From NCBI GenBank assembly GCA_025058535.1, contig JANXEL010000059.1, positions 1-37,175 of the forward strand: a DNA stretch of 37,175 nt, in the 5' to 3' direction. The stretch is from Ignisphaera sp. Its GTDB lineage: Archaea > Thermoproteota > Thermoprotei_A > Sulfolobales > Ignisphaeraceae. A model generated the notes under the pieces. It worked only from the letters and a program-made list of their open reading frames with translations, was not told the DNA's origin and did no database searches. A program made the position numbers and the translations under genes. Within the stretch, counting starts at the first letter, position 1. Each line of letters begins with the position of its first letter. This document shows positions 15,924 to 36,779 of the stretch, one piece after another.

Positions 15924-17276
15924 TTAGCTAACGGATTTGGAATCAATCGCGAGATTGCTGACGGTGTTTAGACGCTGGAGACAGTATTCAAGCATGTTCT
16001 CTCTAGATCTAAGAACCCTCTGCCACATATTCTTGTTGGATGCTGGCTGACCGCCGCCCATTAGGCACCCACCTGGGCAGAGCTCAAATACTACACTTCT
16101 ACTACTGCTGCCCATACTGAGCTCCTCCTTCAACTCAATATTGCTTCTCACACGCTTCACACTGGAGGTGCTACTGTATATAGTTTGGTCCGGCTCTCCA
16201 GATCCGAGTATGCCAAGCGGCATAGTCCTCAAAACCAGCTGGAGCTCACGAGAAGTGACACTATTTGGCAGATGCCGACGCCATGCTATGCATTGTGTAA
16301 CGTAGAGTGCATTGTTGGGAATGCGCGGTGTGAGCAGCTCTATACTGATTTTAGGCAAAAATCTGCTCGAAACTGTGTACTCTGCAGGGGATCTAGCGTA
16401 GATCCTTCCAGGCTCGGCATAGTGTAGGTTTGAAATTACCACCACCTCACTAAATCCTAGCTCCCTAAGAGCTGTAACCACCTGCCCCGGTTCAATGTTC
16501 TCTGCCTCAGCAATTGAAGCAAGAGATTCAAGCTCAATGTATACTGGAGACCCAGAGTGGCTACGCACCTTCTCAGGCTCCATTCTGAAGTACACTGCAC
16601 CCACGGGGCAGTATGCTGTACAGAGGCCACAGTAGATGCAGCCAGCCTTATCGAGAGCCTCCTGATACGGTGTGGAGATCATCGTCAATACGCCTCTGTG
16701 GGTGTAGTTTAGCACGTAGGCACCCACCCTACGACAGACCTCAATACACCTACCGCACACGATACACTTAGATGAGTCGAGTGTTAGAAAACCATCTGAA
16801 TCCGTGACAACGATTAACGGCCTCTCCACTACCTCAAATCTCTTTTCACCAATCTTCGGCACCTCTCCTCTGAGCAGCCTCTCCAGCAGCACCATAAACT
16901 CACCTAGGTTGACTGGGCACCCACGTGCCCAGTAGTCTACCCTAACGTAGTGGTTCAGTGGTCTGGATCTCGGTACGCCAAATTCATTGAGTACACCACT
17001 CTGGACACCACCCATCAGGCTGCACGAACCTAGTGCAATTAGAACCTTCGACCTACCTCTAATCTCCCTCAGACGTTCAGCATCCTCAGCTCCGGTGATA
17101 GAACCCTCAACCACAGCTATATCGAAATCTTCCTCTCCTCTAGCCCCAATTAAACGCCAGTGGAAAACTTTAGCTCCATACCTTTCCACTAAGCTGAACA
17201 ACTCTTCACTCACTATGTTGTATAAGCAGCCCTCACAACCAGTAAGTGATATAAATGCGATCCTTGCTGTGCACAT
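15924..17276 (-). CDS. [NiFe] hydrogenase small subunit fused to ferredoxin and [FeFe]-hydrogenase-like domains
   Basis: 450 residues from ATG 17276, two bases after the large-subunit stop; the ATG at 17318 lies inside that gene and is less likely. Residues 1-135 are a group 3 small-subunit domain with proximal-cluster ligands in LTGCEGC (Cys14, Cys17), GSCSLMGG (Cys85) and RGCPVN (Cys120). Residues 171-181 (CIVCGRCIEVC) and 213-223 (CIYCGLCTAYC) are two [4Fe-4S] ferredoxin motifs. Residues 240-440 align by eye with the [FeFe]-hydrogenase H-domain: EPGQVVTALRELGF, then YVTQC (Cys329, the L2 position) before TSREL, and ELCPGGCLMGGGQP (Cys400, Cys404), the L3 motif. The L1 motif TSCCP is absent and that region is shorter than usual, so a full H-cluster is doubtful. 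It is last in the operon. It should pass electrons between the NiFe site and the NuoEF-like diaphorase. Confidence 0.88.
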   Translation of the reverse strand: MCTARIAFISLTGCEGCLYNIVSEELFSLVERYGAKVFHWRLIGARGEEDFDIAVVEGSITGAEDAERLREIRGRSKVLIALGSCSLMGGVQSGVLNEFGVPRSRPLNHYVRVDYWARGCPVNLGEFMVLLERLLRGEVPKIGEKRFEVVERPLIVVTDSDGFLTLDSSKCIVCGRCIEVCRRVGAYVLNYTHRGVLTMISTPYQEALDKAGCIYCGLCTAYCPVGAVYFRMEPEKVRSHSGSPVYIELESLASIAEAENIEPGQVVTALRELGFSEVVVISNLHYAEPGRIYARSPAEYTVSSRFLPKISIELLTPRIPNNALYVTQCIAWRRHLPNSVTSRELQLVLRTMPLGILGSGEPDQTIYSSTSSVKRVRSNIELKEELSMGSSSRSVVFELCPGGCLMGGGQPASNKNMWQRVLRSRENMLEYCLQRLNTVSNLAIDSKSVS

Positions 17277-17278
17277 AC

Positions 17279-18520
17279 CTAGCCAGCCCTCACCACGTGA
17301 ACAGCGCACGGTATGCATGGATCGTATGCTCTCACGAGCATCTCCACATACCTAGGTACATCAGCCACTCTACCACTTTCTATTAACGAGCTGACGAGAG
17401 CCTTTGCGGAAGTCTCTATATGCCTTGTAAACATAACCGTGGGCGTTATGATGTCAGCCTTTTCAACGATACCATCACACACTTCATAGTAGTGCAGCAG
17501 GAGTCCACGAGGTGCTTCGACTATGGCTAGACCCCTACCCTTTTTTCTCACCGGATCTACCTTCCTTGGCCGCTTGTCTAGGCAGTCCCTAAGATTGTGC
17601 TCAACATTTCTAATAGTGGTGCGGATCTCGAAAGCCTTGGCTAGTAGATTGCCATACGGATTTAGCTTAATGGACTCCAGCACGGCAGGGTCTATATGTG
17701 TGGAGCTGGCATCTCTAGCCAACATCCTTGCTCTAGCACCTACAAAGAATGTACGGCCACCTAGGGTACACTCTCTAGCCCTAGAATATTCGCGCACGCC
17801 TTCAACGAACAAATCGCCATAGTTATCCACACTAACATCGACTCTGCCTTCGCTACTCAGCAGCTCGTACGGTTCTCCCACTGGAACGCTCTTCTCTGGC
17901 CACAGTGCGAGCGCTAGATAGTGGGGCGAAGGGTCTCGGAGATCGTGCAGCGCTATGCTAGAAATAAAGTATTCCACTAAGCTGTCCACTGCTGGGATCA
18001 CCTCATTAATCAATCTGATTGCTCTCTCAATACGCCACCTACCCACATCCGCTACAAATCCTCCGGGTGCATATGGTGGGGGGTTCGACAGTCTACCTGA
18101 TATAAGGTCCAGCGCATTCGTCACTGTCTTCCTCACCTTCAATACACTTCTAACAACCTCTGAGGTAGGTCTTCTGTAGTCTGGTAGTGCCAGAAATGCT
18201 AGGTGAATTAGATTGTTTTCAACTATCTGCAGTTTATTACACGCATCCCTTAGCTTAGCTGTAGAATCATCTACCTCAATCCCTAGAGCGCTTTCTAGAG
18301 CTAGATTAGAGGCCCAGAAGTGTGCGTGGCTACAAAGACCACATATCCTCGAGGCTATGAAGGGCACCCTCCAGTACTCATGCTTTAAAACAAGCCGCTC
18401 AAACAGCCTCTCACTAGATAAGCCAACATATTGAACGTCAACACCATTGTGACCGAGGTAAACCACTACCTCCGATTCCCCAGCAACTCTATCCAGTTCA
18501 AACTTCAGGCTGTTGACCAT
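17279..18520 (-). CDS. [NiFe] hydrogenase large (catalytic) subunit, group 3-like
   Basis: 413 residues. The N-terminal nickel-site motif RICGLCSHAH supplies Cys60 and Cys63, and the C-terminal motif DPCIPCAVH supplies Cys402 and Cys405, so all four NiFe ligands are present. Only five residues (VVRAG) follow His408, the usual maturation cleavage point, so there is little or no peptide to remove. The subunit performs H2 oxidation or proton reduction in the cytoplasm. The gene overlaps the HoxU-like gene by 23 bases and has AAAGGAGGT eleven bases before its ATG. No hydrogenase maturation (hyp) genes are in the window. Confidence 0.93.
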   Translation of the reverse strand: MVNSLKFELDRVAGESEVVVYLGHNGVDVQYVGLSSERLFERLVLKHEYWRVPFIASRICGLCSHAHFWASNLALESALGIEVDDSTAKLRDACNKLQIVENNLIHLAFLALPDYRRPTSEVVRSVLKVRKTVTNALDLISGRLSNPPPYAPGGFVADVGRWRIERAIRLINEVIPAVDSLVEYFISSIALHDLRDPSPHYLALALWPEKSVPVGEPYELLSSEGRVDVSVDNYGDLFVEGVREYSRARECTLGGRTFFVGARARMLARDASSTHIDPAVLESIKLNPYGNLLAKAFEIRTTIRNVEHNLRDCLDKRPRKVDPVRKKGRGLAIVEAPRGLLLHYYEVCDGIVEKADIITPTVMFTRHIETSAKALVSSLIESGRVADVPRYVEMLVRAYDPCIPCAVHVVRAG

Positions 18521-19166
18521 TAGAGGGACTTACCTCCTTTATTAGTTTGGAGAGATCCTCAGGTAAGTTATTCCAGAACACCCTAATTGCCGACAAAAGG
18601 CTCTCAACATCCACATTCCGCATTTTATAGTGCTTGAGAGCCTCCCTCCAGACACCTTTAGATAGTATGAACCCTCTGCACCCAGTGCAGGGTGCCCCCA
18701 GCTTGGTGCACTCCGCATTGCAGCCAGCAATTGTTAGTGGACCGAGGCACGGTATGCGGTAACTCAGCAGACACAGCTCGCCATACAATGGACACTCCGA
18801 GCACACCGGTATGCCCTCGATGAGCATTTCCTTAGCTAGTGAGACTAGGGTGCACGATCCCTTCACTGAGCAATTCCAGCATGAAATTGTGTGGATTGCG
18901 AGCAGCAGTTCTAGATTGAGCCTTCTCAGGCTAATCAATTCCTCATCGTGAGTCACAATAGATGCGCCCTCCTGTACAGGGTATCTGCAAGCAGGTACAA
19001 CCCTTCCGTTCAGCTTTACAACACATATCCTGCAGGTCGCCTCACTGAATACCCCCTGTAGGTAGCAGAGGAGTGGAACCTTGAAGCCCGCCTCCTCAAC
19101 CGCGTCTATGATGTAGCTACCCGGCGGCACATCAACCTCCACACCGTTTACATGCACCTTAACCAT
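18498..19166 (-). CDS. HoxU/NuoG-like iron-sulfur subunit carrying a small-subunit distal-cluster module
   Basis: 222 residues. Residues 1-75 form a plant-type [2Fe-2S] domain (Cys34, Cys45, Cys48, Cys60). HTISCWNCSVKGSC at 92-105 is the His-Cys3 [4Fe-4S] motif of NuoG and HydA. Unusually, residues 122-163 then hold eight more cysteines: CSECPLYGELC, CLGPLTIAGC and CTKLGAPCTGC. That pattern matches the medial and distal cluster part at the C-terminus of group 3 [NiFe] small subunits, which the fused small subunit of this operon lacks. So it appears to link the NiFe module to the NuoEF-like module. It begins nine bases after the NuoF-like gene. ATG 19166 follows GGTTGG. Confidence 0.88.
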   Translation of the reverse strand: MVKVHVNGVEVDVPPGSYIIDAVEEAGFKVPLLCYLQGVFSEATCRICVVKLNGRVVPACRYPVQEGASIVTHDEELISLRRLNLELLLAIHTISCWNCSVKGSCTLVSLAKEMLIEGIPVCSECPLYGELCLLSYRIPCLGPLTIAGCNAECTKLGAPCTGCRGFILSKGVWREALKHYKMRNVDVESLLSAIRVFWNNLPEDLSKLIKEVSPSNGQQPEV

Positions 19167-19175
19167 GGTTCCAAC

Positions 19176-21002
19176 CTACACCTTCCTAACTGCTCCAAAT
19201 GGGCACACAGCCAGACAGGCACCACACTTAATGCACCTCGTCCTATCGATGGTGTACACCTTTCCCGGAGCACCATCGATTGCACTGGTGGGGCAGGATT
19301 TTATGCAGATGCCACACCCGCGGCACAGATCCTCATCAATAACGTACGTCACGAGCTTGGGGCAGGATTTAGCGGGGCACCTCTTATTCACTATGTGCTC
19401 TCTGTACTCATCCTCAAAGTATCTAAGTGTGGAGAGCACTGGATTTGGAGCTGTCCCACCAAGGGCACAGAGGCTGGTTCTACTAATTGCTGCACCTAGC
19501 TCACGGAGAACACCAATATCACTCTCCACACCATCACCACTAGCTATCCTGCTGAGAATGTCGTTCATTATCTTCATACCAATCCTGCACGGTGCGCACT
19601 TCCCACAGGACTCTGCAAGCGTAAAGTCTGTGAAGAACTTCGCTACACTGACCATACAGCTCGAATCGTCTATCACTACCAGTCCCCCGGACCCCATTAT
19701 CGCACCGTGGGCCTGAAGGCTTTCGTAGTCCAGTTCAAGGTTGAAGAGATCGGCTGGTATGCAGCCTCCGCTTGGACCACCGACCTGCACAGCCTTTACC
19801 ACTCTACCTTCGCGCGGCCCACCAGCAATTTCATAGACCAGCTTTCGTATGGTTGTACCTATAGGCACCTCGTACACTCCCGTCTCCCTAACGGCTCCCG
19901 TTACGCAGAACATCTTGGTCCCCTTGGACTTCTCAGTTCCGTATCTGGTGAACTCCTCTACACCAACTTGGAATATTGTGGCTACATGCGCAAGAGTCTC
20001 CACATTGTTTACAACCGTCGGGTTGCCCCATAGACCATGGGTTGCTGGATAGGGTGGTCTCTGCCTTGGTCTAGCTCTACCCTCCAGAGCTGCAATTAGA
20101 GCTGTCTCCTCACCACATACAAATGCTCCAGCGCTTCTGCAGACCTCCACATCAAAGCTGAAGCTTGTGCCAAGAATGTTCTCGCCTAGAAATCCGTGTT
20201 CTCTGGCCTGCTCTACAGCCTTCTCCAGCCTATCGGCCATGAGGGGCTTCTCAGCCCTCACGAATATAAACCCCTTTGAGGCTCCTACAGCGTAGCCCGC
20301 TATCACCAGACCCTCTACCACCCTATGGGGATCTGATTCCGCTAGAAGCCTGTTCATGAACGCCCCAGGGTCACCCTCATCACCATTGCACACAACAAAC
20401 TTCACACTAGCCTTCTCCTCGTAGGCTATTCTCCACTTGAGCCACGTTGGAAATCCAGCTCCTCCTCGACCCCTGAGCCCCGACTTCTTAACAATATCAA
20501 TTACCTCCTCCCTACCCATCCTCAGCGCGTTCATCAAGCCTCTGTAGCCCCCTGTCATAATGTAGTCCTCTATGGACTCTGGATCAACCAGCCCACAGTT
20601 TCTCGATACAAACCTCACCTGATTCCTCCAATTGGGTATAGAATCTAGAGGTGGAGCACCGTAGTCCCTATCACCCACCCTGAATCTAATTGCATACGCT
20701 CCACTCAGATCTCCATCTAGGTAGCTCGTAATGATCTCCTCTAGGTTTTCCAGCCTTACATTCCCGTATATCGCTGGTGGCCTGCCCCTCTCCGCTATTT
20801 CGATCCAGGGGTCTAGGAAGCACATACCCATACACCCAGCCCTCCTTATCTTCACATTCAGATTGAGTTTCTCCACTGTTTTTCCCAACATTCTATACAG
20901 CTCAAGAGCTCCGGCTGCAATTGTACAGCTTGCTAGCGGTACTTTGATCACTATCTCCCCCTGATCTCCATAGATTAGCCTGTGGACTGCATCACCAATC
21001 AT
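19176..21002 (-). CDS. NuoF/HydB-like NADH-binding flavoprotein subunit of the hydrogenase
   Basis: 608 residues from ATG 21002. That ATG overlaps the stop of the NuoE-like gene by four bases (ATGA) and has GGAGGTG six bases upstream, better than the GTG at 21011. An N-terminal thioredoxin-like [2Fe-2S] domain keeps Cys26, Cys57 and Cys61 but has Val where the first ligand is expected. The central NuoF domain has GLRGRGGAGFPTWLKW (FMN) and CNGDEGDPGAF (NADH), then ESCGKCAPCRIG with a later Cys for the N3-type [4Fe-4S] cluster. The C-terminus adds two ferredoxin motifs, CRGCGICIKSC and CIKCGACLAVC. This is the HydB-type layout of bifurcating hydrogenases. It should exchange electrons with NAD(H). 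Confidence 0.93.
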   Translation of the reverse strand: MIGDAVHRLIYGDQGEIVIKVPLASCTIAAGALELYRMLGKTVEKLNLNVKIRRAGCMGMCFLDPWIEIAERGRPPAIYGNVRLENLEEIITSYLDGDLSGAYAIRFRVGDRDYGAPPLDSIPNWRNQVRFVSRNCGLVDPESIEDYIMTGGYRGLMNALRMGREEVIDIVKKSGLRGRGGAGFPTWLKWRIAYEEKASVKFVVCNGDEGDPGAFMNRLLAESDPHRVVEGLVIAGYAVGASKGFIFVRAEKPLMADRLEKAVEQAREHGFLGENILGTSFSFDVEVCRSAGAFVCGEETALIAALEGRARPRQRPPYPATHGLWGNPTVVNNVETLAHVATIFQVGVEEFTRYGTEKSKGTKMFCVTGAVRETGVYEVPIGTTIRKLVYEIAGGPREGRVVKAVQVGGPSGGCIPADLFNLELDYESLQAHGAIMGSGGLVVIDDSSCMVSVAKFFTDFTLAESCGKCAPCRIGMKIMNDILSRIASGDGVESDIGVLRELGAAISRTSLCALGGTAPNPVLSTLRYFEDEYREHIVNKRCPAKSCPKLVTYVIDEDLCRGCGICIKSCPTSAIDGAPGKVYTIDRTRCIKCGACLAVCPFGAVRKV

Positions 21003-21514
21003 GCATCCCACCTCCTCTGCGCCTCTGTCAAATACCTCATTACAACCTTCCTAGCCTCCTGTGGCGATAGCTTCCCGTGTATGTACCTCTCGTTAATCCT
21101 TGTATCTACAACCATCACCACCGGGGCTAAGCTGCAGCAGCCAAAGCATCTAGCCTTTTCAAGAGTTATACCCTCACCCCTAAGAGCCATCCTGATAGCT
21201 TCGTATACCTCAGAAGCACCTCTTAAATAGCAGGCCGTGCCATAGCAGACCTGAAAAACGAACTCACCAATGGGAGTGAGCCTAAATTGGTGGTAGAAGG
21301 TGATGGTGGCCACAACCTCAGATAGAGGTACCCTGAGCTTCTGTGCCACATACTCCACTACTTCCCTAGGTAGGTACCTCAGCCTACCCTGAATCTCTTG
21401 AAAAATGGCTATCAGCTTACTCTGATCATATCCATACTTCATCAGCACCTCATCAACGTGGTGCTTCACACCCTCCAATACTCTAGGATGAGAATCCTGT
21501 GGAGCTAGGAGCAT
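20999..21514 (-). CDS. NuoE/HydC-like [2Fe-2S] subunit of the hydrogenase
   Basis: 171 residues. Helical N-terminus, then the thioredoxin-like domain with ligands in VCYGTACYLRGA (Cys90, Cys95) and ARCFGCCSLAP (Cys123, Cys127), all four present. In Nuo, Hox and Hyd complexes this subunit sits on NuoF/HydB. It is the first gene of the five-gene minus-strand operon. ATG 21514 has GGTGGG six bases upstream. A TATA-like element lies about 165 bases further upstream, so the leader may be long or another promoter may exist. Confidence 0.92.
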   Translation of the reverse strand: MLLAPQDSHPRVLEGVKHHVDEVLMKYGYDQSKLIAIFQEIQGRLRYLPREVVEYVAQKLRVPLSEVVATITFYHQFRLTPIGEFVFQVCYGTACYLRGASEVYEAIRMALRGEGITLEKARCFGCCSLAPVVMVVDTRINERYIHGKLSPQEARKVVMRYLTEAQRRWDA

Positions 21515-22197
21515 ACAACACCCACCGGTGTCACAGTACTAGAGCTGCACGTGGCCCCACCCCATACCCTCCAGCAACCTCTATCAATTCATTGGATTGG
21601 AGATCTGCACTATTTTCCATCAAAGATGTTCTCCTCTCTTTGACCCTCCATTCTCACATACATACCTTTTAATTCAAGTATTTAAGTATTTTCATATTTC
21701 CAGTACAAACGTTTGCATGTTGTAAGGTTCATGTACCATTCAATTAGATGATCTAGAGTTGTAAGTCTAAGCCTGCACAGCTGATCCGGTTAATCAAAGA
21801 GGATTGAACAACCCAGCTCTAGGAGAATCCCAATCGCTGATGTTCGTGGCGATAGTGTGGGTTGCTGTGTAGATCACACTAGCCCAAGGCCGTATTCATC
21901 TAAGTGCTGGTGCAAAATGGTTTGGAGACGTAGTTCAAGAGCATGCTGAAACCTTCAGGTTTAGCCATGTGGAGTTGAATGGTATGCAGAGAGCCTACTG
22001 CGGTTGAATAGAAATAGAGCTGCAAACCCTGGGTCTACAGCTGCACGATCACAGTGGGCACTCCAATCATCCATGGAAAAATCTCCACACTCTTGGAAAC
22101 TAGGAGATTGACTACTGATTTGATGTGCGAGTGGTTGATGGGTAGAACCTGGCAAACTAGTAGGGAGCGCTGGAGCTTTTATTTTTGTAAGGAGAGG
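21515..22197. other. Long intergenic stretch between the hydrogenase operon and fdhD
   Basis: About 680 bases between divergent genes. It holds an AT-rich TATA-like region at 21676-21690 and an inverted repeat at 21620-21643. I see no coding frame or RNA gene. Confidence 0.5.
21620..21643. promoter_or_regulatory. Inverted repeat upstream of the hydrogenase operon
   Basis: TCAAAGA (21620-21626) and TCTTTGA (21637-21643) form an exact 7-base inverted repeat with a 10-base spacer, about 106 bases before the NuoE-like start and between it and the TATA-like ACTTAAATACTT on the minus strand (21676-21687). It could be an operator or an RNA hairpin in the leader. Confidence 0.35.
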
Positions 22198-22902
22198 ATG
22201 CTTTACGGTAGAGTAGTTATGCACATTGCATATATACCCATTAGAAGGGTTTTTAGGGATGGTAGAGCGGAGGATGTAGTTGATGCTGTTGCTGTTGAGC
22301 TGCCGGTGGAGATTTACGTGAATGGAGTTAGAGAGGCTGTTTTGGAGACAAGCCCAGGGATGCTGGAGGAGCTTGGGATGGGGTATGCGAGGGTCCGGGG
22401 CCTTGCTGTAGAGGGTGTGAAGGTTAATGGTGGTAGAATTGATTTGCGTGCCAATCCCCTGAGAACCATTGGACCTGGGGTGCCGATTGTCGGTTTTGCG
22501 GTGGGTATAGAGGGTGTGTTTAGAGCTGTAGAGAATGTGTTTTCCCTTGCAAAGCTGTTTAGAGAGACCGGCTGCTTTCACGTAGCAGCGCTGACGAGCG
22601 TAGATGGAGGTGTTGTAGAGCTCGTTGAGGATATCTCTAGACACTGTGCACTGTACAAGCTGATTGGAAGGATCTCTAAGATAGGGATGGATGCCAGCAA
22701 TAAACTTGTTGTAATGTCCTCTAGAGCAGCCTCACACCTGGTGGAGGCCGTAGCGTTGCTCACAGCTCCTGTGGCAGTATTCAGGGGAGCACCAACGGGC
22801 AGAGCTATTGAGAGGGCCAGGGAATTGAATCTAACACTGGTTGCACACACAGGTAGGGATAAATTCAACATCTATACACATGGCTACAGGATTAAGTTGT
22901 AG
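22198..22902 (+). CDS. fdhD: FdhD-family formate dehydrogenase accessory protein
   Basis: 234 residues from ATG 22198, chosen because homology begins soon after it; AGGAG lies only three bases upstream, so the start is not certain, and ATG 22219 is possible. Seen: VELPVEIYVNG, TGCFHVAAL at 125-132, EDISRHCALYKLIG at 144-157, SSRAASHLVEAVALL and GAPTGRAIERA, ending FNIYTHGYRI, all family landmarks. FdhD transfers sulfur to the molybdenum or tungsten cofactor of formate dehydrogenases. The CxxC pair of the E. coli protein is not present; single cysteines are at 126 and 150. No formate dehydrogenase gene is in the window, but the gene lies next to the NAD-linked hydrogenase operon. Confidence 0.85.
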   Translation: MLYGRVVMHIAYIPIRRVFRDGRAEDVVDAVAVELPVEIYVNGVREAVLETSPGMLEELGMGYARVRGLAVEGVKVNGGRIDLRANPLRTIGPGVPIVGFAVGIEGVFRAVENVFSLAKLFRETGCFHVAALTSVDGGVVELVEDISRHCALYKLIGRISKIGMDASNKLVVMSSRAASHLVEAVALLTAPVAVFRGAPTGRAIERARELNLTLVAHTGRDKFNIYTHGYRIKL

Positions 22903-33488: not shown

Positions 33489-34370
33489 ATGGTGAAGCTA
33501 GCTGTATTCACAGGCTGCTTCGCACTATCAAAGCAGATTGCGGTAGAGCTGTCTACACTTAGAGTTCTCCAGCACCTAAACGTAGAGCCCATAGTTCCAA
33601 GAAGTGTGAACTGCTGTGGATTTGCGTTCAGAGGTCTGTATCCATCAATGTCCCTCTACCTCACTGGTAGGCTCCTCGCCTCTCTCACAGCCTCGGATCC
33701 TGATGGAATTCTCACCCTCTGCAATGGATGCTACCTAATGCTTAGGGAGGCTGTCCACAGGCTCAGAGAGGATAGGAGGCTGCTGGAGTCAGTTAGAAGC
33801 TATCTTAGAGATGAGGGTCTCGAGCTTAGGGGGATTCCAAGGATAGTGCATCCCGTGGAGCTCCTCCACGATATTGTCGGCACCGAGGTGCTAAAGGGCA
33901 TTAAGAGGACTGGAGACAATAATGTGCTCGTGGCTACCCACTACGGCTGCCACGCCCTGCGACCATCAACTGTACCATCCTTCGACAATTCAGTGAACCC
34001 CAGTAAGATGGAGAGAATCGTGGAGGCGCTGGGCTTTAGAGCTAGAGACTATCCGGAGAGGCTCGACTGCTGTGGAGCGGTACTGCTGGCAACAAATCCA
34101 AGCCTCGCAATGAAGCTGGCGTACTCCAAAATAAGCGGTACTGCCAGATGGGGATTCCACCTACTCGTAACAACGTGTCCGTACTGTTTTGAGATGCTCG
34201 ATGCTAGGCAGGAGGCTGTGATGCAGACGTTCGGCGACGAGCCGAGGCTACCCGTAATGCTCCTGACTCAACTCATCGGCCTACAGCTCGGCTTAAGTGA
34301 AGGTGATGTAGCGCTCAATCTCAATCTCTCCCCAGTCGACAAAGTTCTGCCACAAATTGTAAGGAGGTGA
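33489..34370 (+). CDS. hdrB: Heterodisulfide reductase subunit B
   Basis: 293 residues from ATG 33489, with GAGGAG eleven bases upstream; TTG 33480 is the less likely alternative. Two complete CCG-type motifs are present: Cys10, NCCG (42, 43), LCNGC (78, 81) and Cys154, DCCG (194, 195), TCPYC (230, 233). In methanogen HdrB these bind two non-cubane [4Fe-4S] clusters that cleave the CoM-S-S-CoB disulfide. The natural disulfide here is unknown, since no methanogenesis gene is in the window. Confidence 0.93.
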   Translation: MVKLAVFTGCFALSKQIAVELSTLRVLQHLNVEPIVPRSVNCCGFAFRGLYPSMSLYLTGRLLASLTASDPDGILTLCNGCYLMLREAVHRLREDRRLLESVRSYLRDEGLELRGIPRIVHPVELLHDIVGTEVLKGIKRTGDNNVLVATHYGCHALRPSTVPSFDNSVNPSKMERIVEALGFRARDYPERLDCCGAVLLATNPSLAMKLAYSKISGTARWGFHLLVTTCPYCFEMLDARQEAVMQTFGDEPRLPVMLLTQLIGLQLGLSEGDVALNLNLSPVDKVLPQIVRR

Positions 34371-34375
34371 CGGGC

Positions 34376-36367
34376 TTGGAGGGAAGTAGTAGGATAGGTG
34401 TATTTCTGTGCCACTGTGGTACTAATATAGCTGGTGTTGTAGACATCAAAAGGGTTGCTGAAGAGATTGGAAAGATACCCAATGTGGTGGTCTGGGACCA
34501 CAGATTCCTGTGCTCTGCAGATGGTATAGATAGTATGGTTAGCAGTATAAGGTCTAGTGGTGTAGACAGGGTTGTTGTAGCAGCATGTTCATTTAGAACG
34601 CACGAGCCTGTGTTCCAAGCAGCTCTCCACAGAGCTGGTCTAAATCCATACCTGCTGGAGATTGTGAGTACCAGGGAGCTGTGTTCATGGGTGCACGAGG
34701 GGGAGAAGGAGAAGGCTACGGAGAAGGCTATTAGAATGGTTAGGGCCGCCATTGCTAAGATTAGGGATAATCGACCGCTGGAGCGTAGGAGGCTTCCTGT
34801 TGTACCGGCTGCCCTTGTTGTAGGAGGTGGTGTGGCTGGTATAAGAGCTGCTCTAGATATTGCTGATTCTGGCTTTACAGTGTATCTGATTGAGAGGGGG
34901 GCCAGCATTGGTGGGAATATGGCCAGGCTCGACAAGACATTCCCGACACTAGACTGCTCAATATGCATCCTTGGGCCCTTGATGAACGCTGTTGCTCAGC
35001 ATCCGAACATTAGGCTGCTCACCTACAGTGAAGTTGTGTCGGTAGAGGGTAGGGTGGGAGAGTTCGTGGTGAAGATACTCAGAAAGCCGAGGTACATTAA
35101 GGAGAGTCTCTGTAAAGGGTGCCTCATATGCATCGCTAAGTGCCCTGCGAGAGCCATTGATGAATTCAACCTGAAGCTCTCTCACAGAAAAGCAATATAC
35201 GTGCCGTATCCCCAAGCAGTTCCTCGAATCCCCGTCATAGATCCCGATGCGTGTCTCTACCTCCGGAAGGGGATCTGCAGAACCTGTGAAAAGCTCTGCC
35301 CAACAGGAGCTGTAGACTTTGCCCAGAGAGGTGAGGTTGTGGAGGTTAGAGTCGGCTCAATAATTGTTGCAACAGGTTTTGAGGAGTACGACATCTCCAG
35401 CGTCTATGAGTACGGTTACGGCAGATACCCAAATGTTGTTACCGGACTTCAGCTAGAGCGTCTCGTAAGCTCCTATGGACCCACAGAGGGGAGGCTCACT
35501 GTTCCTGGACTTGGCATAGAGCCTAGACGGGTAGCAATAATAAACTGTGCTGGTTCGCGTGACGAGAGGCATCTACCATACTGCTGCAGGGTTGGGTGTA
35601 TGGCTAGCCTCAAGCATGCGTGGTACATCAAGCACCTTGTGCCAGAGGCAGAGGTACTCATATTCGCCGATGAGATAAGAGCGTCTGGAAAGAACTTTGA
35701 GGAGTTCTACAGAAGGATAAGGCTGCTACCTGGTGTCTACATAGTTAAGAGCAGGGCAAGTGAAGTTAGAGCTAACCCCAGCGGTACACTATCCATTAAG
35801 GCGTACGATCCTGTGCTCAATCGCGAGGTGACTGTGGAGGTTGACCTGGTGGTTCTTGAGGTGGGCATCGTAGCAAGCCGCAGTACAGAGGCTGTAAGAA
35901 ACATACTGAAGCTAGGGGCATCGCCCACAGGTGGATTTCTGCTGGAGCTGCACCCAAAGCTCAACCCTGTTGAAACTGCTGTTGATGGTGTCTACATATG
36001 TGGTGCTGCAGCTGGGCCAAAGGATATACCAGAGAGCGTAGCACAGGCTAGTGCAGCTGCTAGCAAAGTTATAGCACTGCTTTCAAGGGGCTACATAGAG
36101 ATTCAGCCACACACCGCACGAGTTGTCGAGGAGCTGTGTAGTGGCTGCAGGATCTGCGTTACAGCATGTGCGTACGGTGCTATAAGGATTGTTGAGAGGG
36201 GTGGAAGGAATGTGGCCTCTGTAGATGAGGTTCTATGCAAGGGGTGTGGATCCTGTGTAGGCTCGTGTCCAAGTGGAGCCATTGAGATTCAAAATCTAAA
36301 GCTGAGCCAGGTGGAGGCAGTGATGTCTGAAATGCAGGGGTGGGAACCCTATGTCCAGAGAGCCTAG
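34376..36367 (+). CDS. hdrA: Heterodisulfide reductase subunit A (flavin-bifurcating)
   Basis: 663 residues from TTG 34376. A full Shine-Dalgarno AAGGAGGTGA at 34361-34370 sits five bases before it; the GTG at 34367 lies inside that site and is unlikely. Seen: FLCHCGTNIAG (Cys12, Cys14), FAD-binding VVGGGVAGIRAA near 148-159, SIGGNMARLDKTFPTLDCSIC (split by the cluster-ligating Cys194 and Cys197), ferredoxin motifs CKGCLICIAKC and C..CRTCEKLC, and two more near the end, CSGCRICVTAC and CKGCGSCVGSC. HdrA splits electron pairs between ferredoxin and HdrB. Length matches methanogen HdrA. Confidence 0.93.
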   Translation: MEGSSRIGVFLCHCGTNIAGVVDIKRVAEEIGKIPNVVVWDHRFLCSADGIDSMVSSIRSSGVDRVVVAACSFRTHEPVFQAALHRAGLNPYLLEIVSTRELCSWVHEGEKEKATEKAIRMVRAAIAKIRDNRPLERRRLPVVPAALVVGGGVAGIRAALDIADSGFTVYLIERGASIGGNMARLDKTFPTLDCSICILGPLMNAVAQHPNIRLLTYSEVVSVEGRVGEFVVKILRKPRYIKESLCKGCLICIAKCPARAIDEFNLKLSHRKAIYVPYPQAVPRIPVIDPDACLYLRKGICRTCEKLCPTGAVDFAQRGEVVEVRVGSIIVATGFEEYDISSVYEYGYGRYPNVVTGLQLERLVSSYGPTEGRLTVPGLGIEPRRVAIINCAGSRDERHLPYCCRVGCMASLKHAWYIKHLVPEAEVLIFADEIRASGKNFEEFYRRIRLLPGVYIVKSRASEVRANPSGTLSIKAYDPVLNREVTVEVDLVVLEVGIVASRSTEAVRNILKLGASPTGGFLLELHPKLNPVETAVDGVYICGAAAGPKDIPESVAQASAAASKVIALLSRGYIEIQPHTARVVEELCSGCRICVTACAYGAIRIVERGGRNVASVDEVLCKGCGSCVGSCPSGAIEIQNLKLSQVEAVMSEMQGWEPYVQRA

Positions 36368-36779
36368 GATTATAGCATTCACGTGCACCTACTGTGCCTA
36401 TGCTGCTGCTGAAGCTGCTGGTGTGAGCAAGCTACACTACCCTCCACACATCTATATAGTTAGGCTACCGTGCAGTGGAATGTTCAAGAGCCACCATGTG
36501 CTCAAGGCCCTTCGCAGCGGCTATGATGCTGTTCTGTGGGGTGGGTGCCACCCACCGTACGACTGCCACTTTGTGAATGGCAACTACAAGGCTTTGGTGC
36601 GAGCTACCCTGCTGAAGAACTATCTAAGGCAGCTTGGTTTTGAAGATGATAGGTTTAGGCTTGAGTGGATAGCTGCTGGTGAGGCTGAAAGGTTTGCATC
36701 GATAGCTAGGGAGATGGTGGAGAAAGCTACCGCTCTACCCAAGCTAAGGTTTCTGAAACACAGTGAGGTAGTGGACTGA
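36351..36779 (+). CDS. mvhD: F420-non-reducing hydrogenase iron-sulfur subunit D
   Basis: 142 residues. Landmarks CTYCAYAAAEAAG, RLPCSGM and GGCHPPYDCHFVNGN supply the cysteines of the [2Fe-2S] site and match MvhD, the adaptor that joins the hydrogenase to HdrA. It overlaps hdrA by 17 bases and has GGGGTGG eight bases before ATG 36351. Its stop overlaps the next start (TGATG). Confidence 0.93.
   Translation: MSREPRIIAFTCTYCAYAAAEAAGVSKLHYPPHIYIVRLPCSGMFKSHHVLKALRSGYDAVLWGGCHPPYDCHFVNGNYKALVRATLLKNYLRQLGFEDDRFRLEWIAAGEAERFASIAREMVEKATALPKLRFLKHSEVVD

Follow-up and report, generated by a model that had tools for sequence, protein, structure and literature searches.

Apparent reciprocal exchange of C-terminal halves between HydA and a [NiFe] hydrogenase small subunit in an archaeal hydrogenase operon

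In this study, we have found that two neighbouring proteins of an Ignisphaera sp. hydrogenase operon, here called S' and A', appear to have arisen by an exchange of C-terminal halves between HydA and a [NiFe] hydrogenase small subunit. The operon lies in the window, by which we mean the whole stretch of DNA analysed (37,175 nucleotides of contig JANXEL010000059.1). Its five genes, C-B-A'-L-S', probably encode one soluble NAD(H)/ferredoxin-linked bifurcating [NiFe] hydrogenase, in which A' and S' are interlocked and the [FeFe]-type domain of S' persists as a vestigial or structural arm; we put the probability of this reading at roughly 70%. The enzyme would be an H2-using one with its halves swapped, rather than one with two working hydrogen sites, and it shows a way for hydrogenase classes of separate origin to combine, through a half-swap between neighbouring electron-transfer subunits.

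Results

The S' fusion protein

S' is a protein of 450 amino acids encoded at 15924..17276 on the minus strand, as are all of the operon features described below. Its start codon is ATG; the mechanically called open reading frame reaches 17318 (464 amino acids). The protein joins the N-terminus of a [NiFe] small subunit to two [4Fe-4S] motifs and a shrunken [FeFe]-type domain, a fusion that had been proposed in a sequence-only reading of this DNA and that is now confirmed by Pfam, profile, hhalign and model comparisons. Every feature listed in that reading (Cys14/17/85/120, the two [4Fe-4S] motifs, TQC before TSREL and the L3 signature) is present. Residues 1-143 (16848..17276) form the N-terminal domain of a [NiFe] small subunit, with the four proximal-cluster cysteines of group 3 enzymes (C14, C17, C85 and C120). 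The match to Oxidored_q6 that was expected of this N-terminus was found over residues 28-143 of the 464-residue frame (E 9e-18), and in a PDB search residues 2-157 of the Pyrococcus SHI delta subunit matched positions 3-154 of the S' profile (E 1e-37). Residues 164-235 (16572..16787) are the dicluster ferredoxin domain of HydA, with eight invariant cysteines in two CxxCxxCxxxC motifs (171/174/177/181 and 213/216/219/223). Finally, residues 244-430 (15987..16547) make up an [FeFe]-hydrogenase-type domain whose H-cluster site is incomplete; the last third of the protein contains EPGQVVTALRELGF, TQC (C329) ahead of TSREL, and then ELCPGGCLMGGGQP (C400, C404).

A profile was needed to assign this last domain, because the single sequence gives no significant Pfam match to Fe_hyd_lg_C (E 0.048 and 13.7 bits over the last third, under the cut-off of 22.1). 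The match predicted by the sequence-only reading was therefore missing from the lone sequence and appeared with a profile built from eight orthologous C-terminal domains, which gave 43 PDB matches at E <= 0.002, all of them [FeFe] hydrogenases (best 3e-9). Similarly, hhalign of S'-type terminal domains against five [FeFe] sequences gave a probability of 99.9 (E 5e-31, 223 columns), with control pairs at 0.3-23%. The AlphaFold model of S' has a mean pLDDT of 86, with much of the last domain above that mean; its matches to the HydA and CpI folds have E values of 1e-14 to 5e-17, and its match to the Pyrococcus sulfhydrogenase small subunit has an E value of 1e-11. We also considered whether the terminal domain might be the C-terminal domain of Acetomicrobium mobile HydA. 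This was not supported, as the terminal-domain profile was significant to [FeFe] hydrogenases only; the S' profile matched A. mobile HydA (7t2r_A) solely in the ferredoxin part.

Distribution and conservation of the S' family

An alignment-based scan of genome contigs recovered the S' family, a close-relative scan of genome contigs with the single protein having returned zero matches. There are 32 further proteins with the S' layout, mostly from uncultured Thermoproteota, and full-length relatives share 28-53% identity with S'. They come from Desulfurococcales, Pyrodictiaceae, Sulfolobales, Thermofilaceae, Wolframiiraptor and Bathyarchaeota MAGs, together with one from Archaeoglobales; the fusion was not found in the other searched genomes of the source genus or family. 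The 15 cluster cysteines of S' are essentially invariant among the proteins compared: C14 and C17 are each present in all 32 proteins covering the region, C85 in 32 of 33 and C120 in 33 of 33, and the eight ferredoxin cysteines and the three terminal ones (C329, C400 and C404) are each found in 33 of 33. The gene order C-B-A'-L-S' is kept at nearly all inspected loci with sufficient flank.

Some loci depart from this pattern. In L058 (G073) the fusion gene is broken by several stop codons, and in L097 (8001-9316, Bathyarchaeota JZ_bin_32) the match has no long open reading frame across it; both are apparent pseudogenes. In L096 (5113-7197, Bathyarchaeota SKYB62), the A' gene directly neighbours that of S', the intervening [NiFe] large-subunit gene being absent, and large subunits are encoded elsewhere in that genome. 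In the window itself, the G+C content of the operon is 0.48-0.53 (16000-21000), against 0.43-0.45 in the stretches just below. Because of this higher G+C content and the absence of the fusion from the other genomes searched in the genus and family, it is possible that the operon was acquired horizontally.

A' is the reciprocal fusion

The sequence-only reading recognized the fusion in S' and missed its counterpart in a neighbouring gene, so that it caught only half of the event. A' (222 amino acids, 18498..19166) begins with the N-terminus of HydA/NuoG (residues 1-117, 18816..19166; HydA1 E 4e-19; NF040763 positions 1-120, E 3.5e-29), which carries ligands for a [2Fe-2S] cluster (C34, C45, C48 and C60) and a His-ligated [4Fe-4S] cluster (H92, C96, C99 and C105). 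It continues with the C-terminal domain of a [NiFe] small subunit, a domain with two clusters (residues 119-213, 18528..18812; C122, 125, 132, 140, 149, 153, 160 and 163). All of these ligands, including those of the two transplanted clusters, are invariant in 24 of 24 proteins. Residues 161-256 of SHI delta match the C-terminal domain of A' in a PDB search (E 8e-16), and small-subunit C-termini align with A' C-termini in hhalign (E 6.7e-27).

The cross-over points in both proteins are located directly by NCBIfam models. Positions 1-120 of NF040763 ([FeFe] A6 HydA) correspond to A' 2-119 and positions 131-265 to S' 155-278, while positions 6-159 of NF040836 (sulfhydrogenase delta) correspond to S' 4-140 and positions 164-256 to A' 119-210. 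Furthermore, three unswapped archaeal loci (L154, L155 and L156) encode a whole HydA (530-549 amino acids) and a whole small subunit (238-246 amino acids), and each half of A' and S' matches the expected half of these proteins. As A' and S' hold reciprocal pieces and these relatives are unswapped, the genes for HydA and the [NiFe] small subunit have swapped their C-terminal halves. A tree of the ferredoxin and terminal domains, rooted on [FeFe] hydrogenases, places the swapped proteins in one clade (98/98) with L153 as its deepest branch and the unswapped proteins as its sister (100/99); thus, one exchange suffices. Nearly all cluster sites appear, on present sequence evidence, to have outlasted the half-swap.

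State of the [FeFe]-type domain

Using CpI numbering, we compared S' with canonical, unswapped, L153 and other swapped sequences in a joint alignment. In CpI, C299 is a relay, C300 is a cluster ligand, and M353, K358 and M497 hold the di-iron site. In canonical [FeFe] hydrogenases, the residues at these positions are C299, C300 (replaced by Ser in two TSCSP types), M353, C355, K358, E361, M497, C499 and C503. In the S' of the window, the changes are C299R, C300S, M353T, K358W and M497E, with C355, C499 and C503 kept. The L1 site (S' residues 293-299, 16380..16400) has no cysteine at all, and R295-S296 stand at CpI C299 and C300 instead of TSCCP or a variant. At L2, MPCxxKxxE has become TQCIAWRRH; the remnant TQC (16290..16298) keeps the cysteine (C329), and M, K and E are lost, W332 standing at K358. 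The L3 remnant LCPGGCLMGGGQP (16044..16082; C400 and C404) retains CxxxC with GGG (CPGGCLMGGGQP).

The loci form a graded series from canonical through unswapped and swapped with both L1 cysteines to swapped without them, and the order of events is therefore testable. In the unswapped proteins, C299 has become Ala or Glu and M353 and M497 are lost, with all four cluster cysteines kept. L153 keeps both L1 cysteines and has changed M353, K358 and M497. Serine occupies the C300 position in all 32 swapped proteins other than L153, and C299 is missing from all but one of the 31 that remain when the window and L153 are set aside. The span from C355 to C499 is 144-160 residues in canonical proteins, 132 in the unswapped ones, 84 in L153 and 67-77 in the other swapped proteins (71 in the window). 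From this series we tentatively propose, at somewhat less than even odds, a route, not known to have been described before, in which one reciprocal exchange between HydA of a bifurcating hydrogenase and the small subunit interlocked the modules and stepwise dismantling of the [FeFe] site followed.

A search of 17 genomes, including the source genome, found no HydG or HydF above the curated cut-off. This absence is weak evidence, because it is shared by G273, a genome of the window's phylum whose 603-residue [FeFe] hydrogenase (L157, 5916-7727) has canonical TSCCP, MPCxxKK and CPGGC motifs and which also has neither HydG nor HydF above the cut-off. Taken with the loss of both L1 cysteines and of the residues that hold the di-iron site, it leads us to consider that the [FeFe]-type domain of S' very probably holds no H-cluster. 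The sequence-only reading was thus well founded in its fusion and in naming archaeal hybrid hydrogenases as the proper frame, but its H-cluster-like domain cannot be upheld as a usable one: the L1 cysteines, M353, K358 and M497 are replaced, the span is halved, and HydG and HydF were not found. Genes of this kind should not be counted as [FeFe] hydrogenases in surveys of H2 cycling.

A three-cysteine cluster in the terminal domain is possible. The three remaining cysteines and S296 are invariant or nearly so, as is E299 of S', a pattern that points to a genuine function, not to decay, and counts against our favoured reading. We rejected Ser296 as a proven cluster ligand: bacterial TSCSP sequences also carry Ser at this position, keeping Cys at C299, so that a serine there is not diagnostic by itself.

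The other subunits of the operon

L (413 amino acids, 17279..18520) is a [NiFe] large subunit (PF00374, E 3.5e-23; Pyrococcus SHI alpha, E 9e-36) that keeps both CxxC motifs of group 3 enzymes, RICGLCSHAH and DPCIPCAVH. HypD, of the Hyp maturation system, is present (E 7e-104). The large subunits of L084, L085, L086 and L089-L092 stop exactly at DPCLPCxVH and, having no extension past this motif, would mature independently of the protease that normally cleaves the tail; the L of the window has five extra residues.

B (611 amino acids, 19176..21011) is a HydB-type NADH/FMN subunit with the B1-B4 ligands and the N-terminal cysteines of B5, and its residues 29-611 align with A. mobile NiFe-HydB (E 6e-193). 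The B1 ligands and the equivalents of C438, H525, C531 and C536 of B2 are conserved in 25 of 25 proteins, and those of B3/B4 in 23 of 25. Against the bifurcating reading, the remaining B2 ligand (C476 in A. mobile) is Ala in the window and Thr, Val, Ala, Ile, Lys or Ser in nearly all relatives, though this position is only semi-conserved (Cys/Thr) in known enzymes. C (171 amino acids, 20999..21514) is a HydC/NuoE subunit (PF01257, E 2.9e-33) that keeps the C1 [2Fe-2S] ligands in CYGTAC and CFGCC. Thus, the B1, B3, B4 and C1 ligands that mark the NiFe-Bfu cluster set are all present. In two swapped loci, L092 (940-2760) and L153 (3476-5152), HydB has no C-terminal B3/B4 ferredoxin domain, which suggests that the ferredoxin branch has been lost there.

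Discussion

Hybrid complexes made from fused [FeFe] and [NiFe] hydrogenases have reportedly been found in ten archaeal orders, and they resemble the present proteins in the [FeFe]/[NiFe] fusion and in the uncultured archaeal hosts. S' shows the traits that define that class: a single polypeptide holds an [FeFe]-derived domain together with a [NiFe] subunit, and its archaeal operon also encodes a [NiFe] large subunit. S' is therefore probably a member of the group of archaeal 'hybrid hydrogenases' described by Greening et al. (2024, Cell, doi 10.1016/j.cell.2024.05.032). A literature search on these loci returned nothing relevant beyond citations of that paper; the half-swap between A' and S', the relatives in uncrossed form and the graded disappearance of L1 were obtained in the present analysis.

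Apart from the fifth B2 ligand, the bifurcating cluster set of HydB and HydC, together with [NiFe] S and L subunits, is shared with the NiFe-HydABCSL/NiFe-Bfu enzyme of A. mobile (PDB 7T2R, PMC8880783; PMC9304861), as are HydA-type clusters with a demoted H-cluster position. In that enzyme, HydA carries a [4Fe-4S] cluster, A5, in place of the H-cluster, the path runs FMN-B1-A1-A2-A3-S1-[NiFe], and the arm formed by A4/A5, which lies at the dimer interface, is a dead end (PMC8880783). However, A. mobile HydA is one chain holding A1-A5, whereas here HydA is split over A' and S'; its HydS is a short HoxY-type subunit of 179 amino acids with S1 only, whereas here the small subunit is of the long type and has exchanged halves with HydA; and the terminal domain of S', unlike that of A. 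mobile, is a shrunken [FeFe] domain. The group A, NADH-linked [FeFe] hydrogenases (A6/HydA; NF040763; T. kivui and T. maritima HydA) share the domain order and are homologous to the A' N-terminus and to the ferredoxin and terminal domains of S', but in S' L1 is lost, L2 is changed and half of the L2-L3 region is gone, and the chain is cut into two pieces, each joined to a piece of the [NiFe] small subunit. Among solved structures, L and the two small-subunit halves have their best relative in the group 3b sulfhydrogenase of Pyrococcus (PDB 9NEZ; SHI alpha and delta), although in SHI delta both halves lie in one chain and here they lie in two proteins.

Mapped onto the A. mobile enzyme, A1 and the His-ligated cluster fall in A', the ferredoxin domain and S1 in S', and both clusters of the small-subunit C-terminus in A'. 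The A. mobile path is not exactly transferable, because the long-type small subunit adds two clusters that have no counterpart in HydS. In the bifurcating [NiFe] hydrogenase that we favour, L would process H2 at its [NiFe] site. Electrons would then pass from the proximal cluster in S' to the small-subunit C-terminal and HydA N-terminal clusters in A', on to the ferredoxin domain in S', and back through the [2Fe-2S] cluster of A' to the FMN in B, where they would be split between NAD+ and ferredoxin (B2-B4 and C1). The swap of C-terminal halves between HydA and the small subunit would have left this path in place, but the path would now weave repeatedly between A' and S', making the two proteins mutually dependent and locking the modules together; a gain in stability at high temperature from such interlocking is a guess. 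The terminal domain of S' would stand in the place of A5 as an arm that is structural or a dead end, and it would most likely carry a single three-cysteine cluster, or no cluster of importance to catalysis.

It is unlikely, in our judgement, that this domain is instead a working redox arm in which C329, C400, C404 and perhaps S296 bind a [4Fe-4S] or [3Fe-4S] cluster for electron exchange with an extra partner, ferredoxin or another acceptor, with no H2 chemistry. The invariance of the three cysteines in all 33 proteins, the serine at the C300 position in 32 of 32 swapped proteins excluding L153 and the near-invariant E299 would all suit such an arm, as would the [3Fe-4S] cluster obtained by a Cys-to-Ala change in TamHydS, made at the C-terminal [4Fe-4S] cluster and not at the H-cluster (PMC13104023). 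However, the operon has no gene for a partner, and the equivalent arm of A. mobile, at the dimer interface, was judged nonfunctional (PMC8880783).

We give slightly less credence to a Hox-like, NAD(P)-linked hydrogenase that does not bifurcate and uses H2 and NAD(H) only. Its [NiFe] and diaphorase modules would resemble those of Hox and SHI, as they do here, the missing fifth B2 ligand would fit, and the B3/B4 domain is absent from the HydB of L092 and L153, as if the ferredoxin branch had been lost in some relatives. Against this, the B of the window retains B3/B4 together with four of the five B2 ligands, and C1 is retained in C, a set that Hox lacks.

Very improbable is the enzyme that the sequence-only reading implied, with an H-cluster in the [FeFe]-type domain evolving H2 alongside the [NiFe] site. 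The L3 motif CPGGCxxGGGQP and the L2 cysteine are retained, and the title of Greening et al. (2024) refers to active hybrid hydrogenases, but both L1 cysteines are missing (L153 alone keeps them), C299, M353, K358 and M497 are replaced, the domain is shortened, and HydG/HydF were not found over the cut-off in the 17 genomes. The chance that assembly or annotation fused two separate genes, the objection raised in advance by the sequence-only reading, is negligible: the contig does come from a MAG (1.72 Mb, 94% complete, 103 contigs), but about 30 further archaeal contigs carry this architecture, with an identical fusion and operon order in independent assemblies from several archaeal orders, and the matching reciprocal fusion adjoins S'.

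Other loci on the contig

On the plus strand, at 22054-22902, a gene divergent from the hydrogenase operon is like FdhD, an accessory protein of formate dehydrogenase (TIGR00129, E 5e-36, slightly below the cut-off). A second redox locus lies on the plus strand at the end of the contig (32999-37174), and corresponds to an HdrABC-Mvh-type complex. It comprises open reading frames that are HdrC- and HdrB-like by eye, an HdrA2-like gene (34367-36367), a VhuD/MvhD-like gene (36351-36779) and, interrupted by the contig end, the beginning of a further [NiFe] small subunit.
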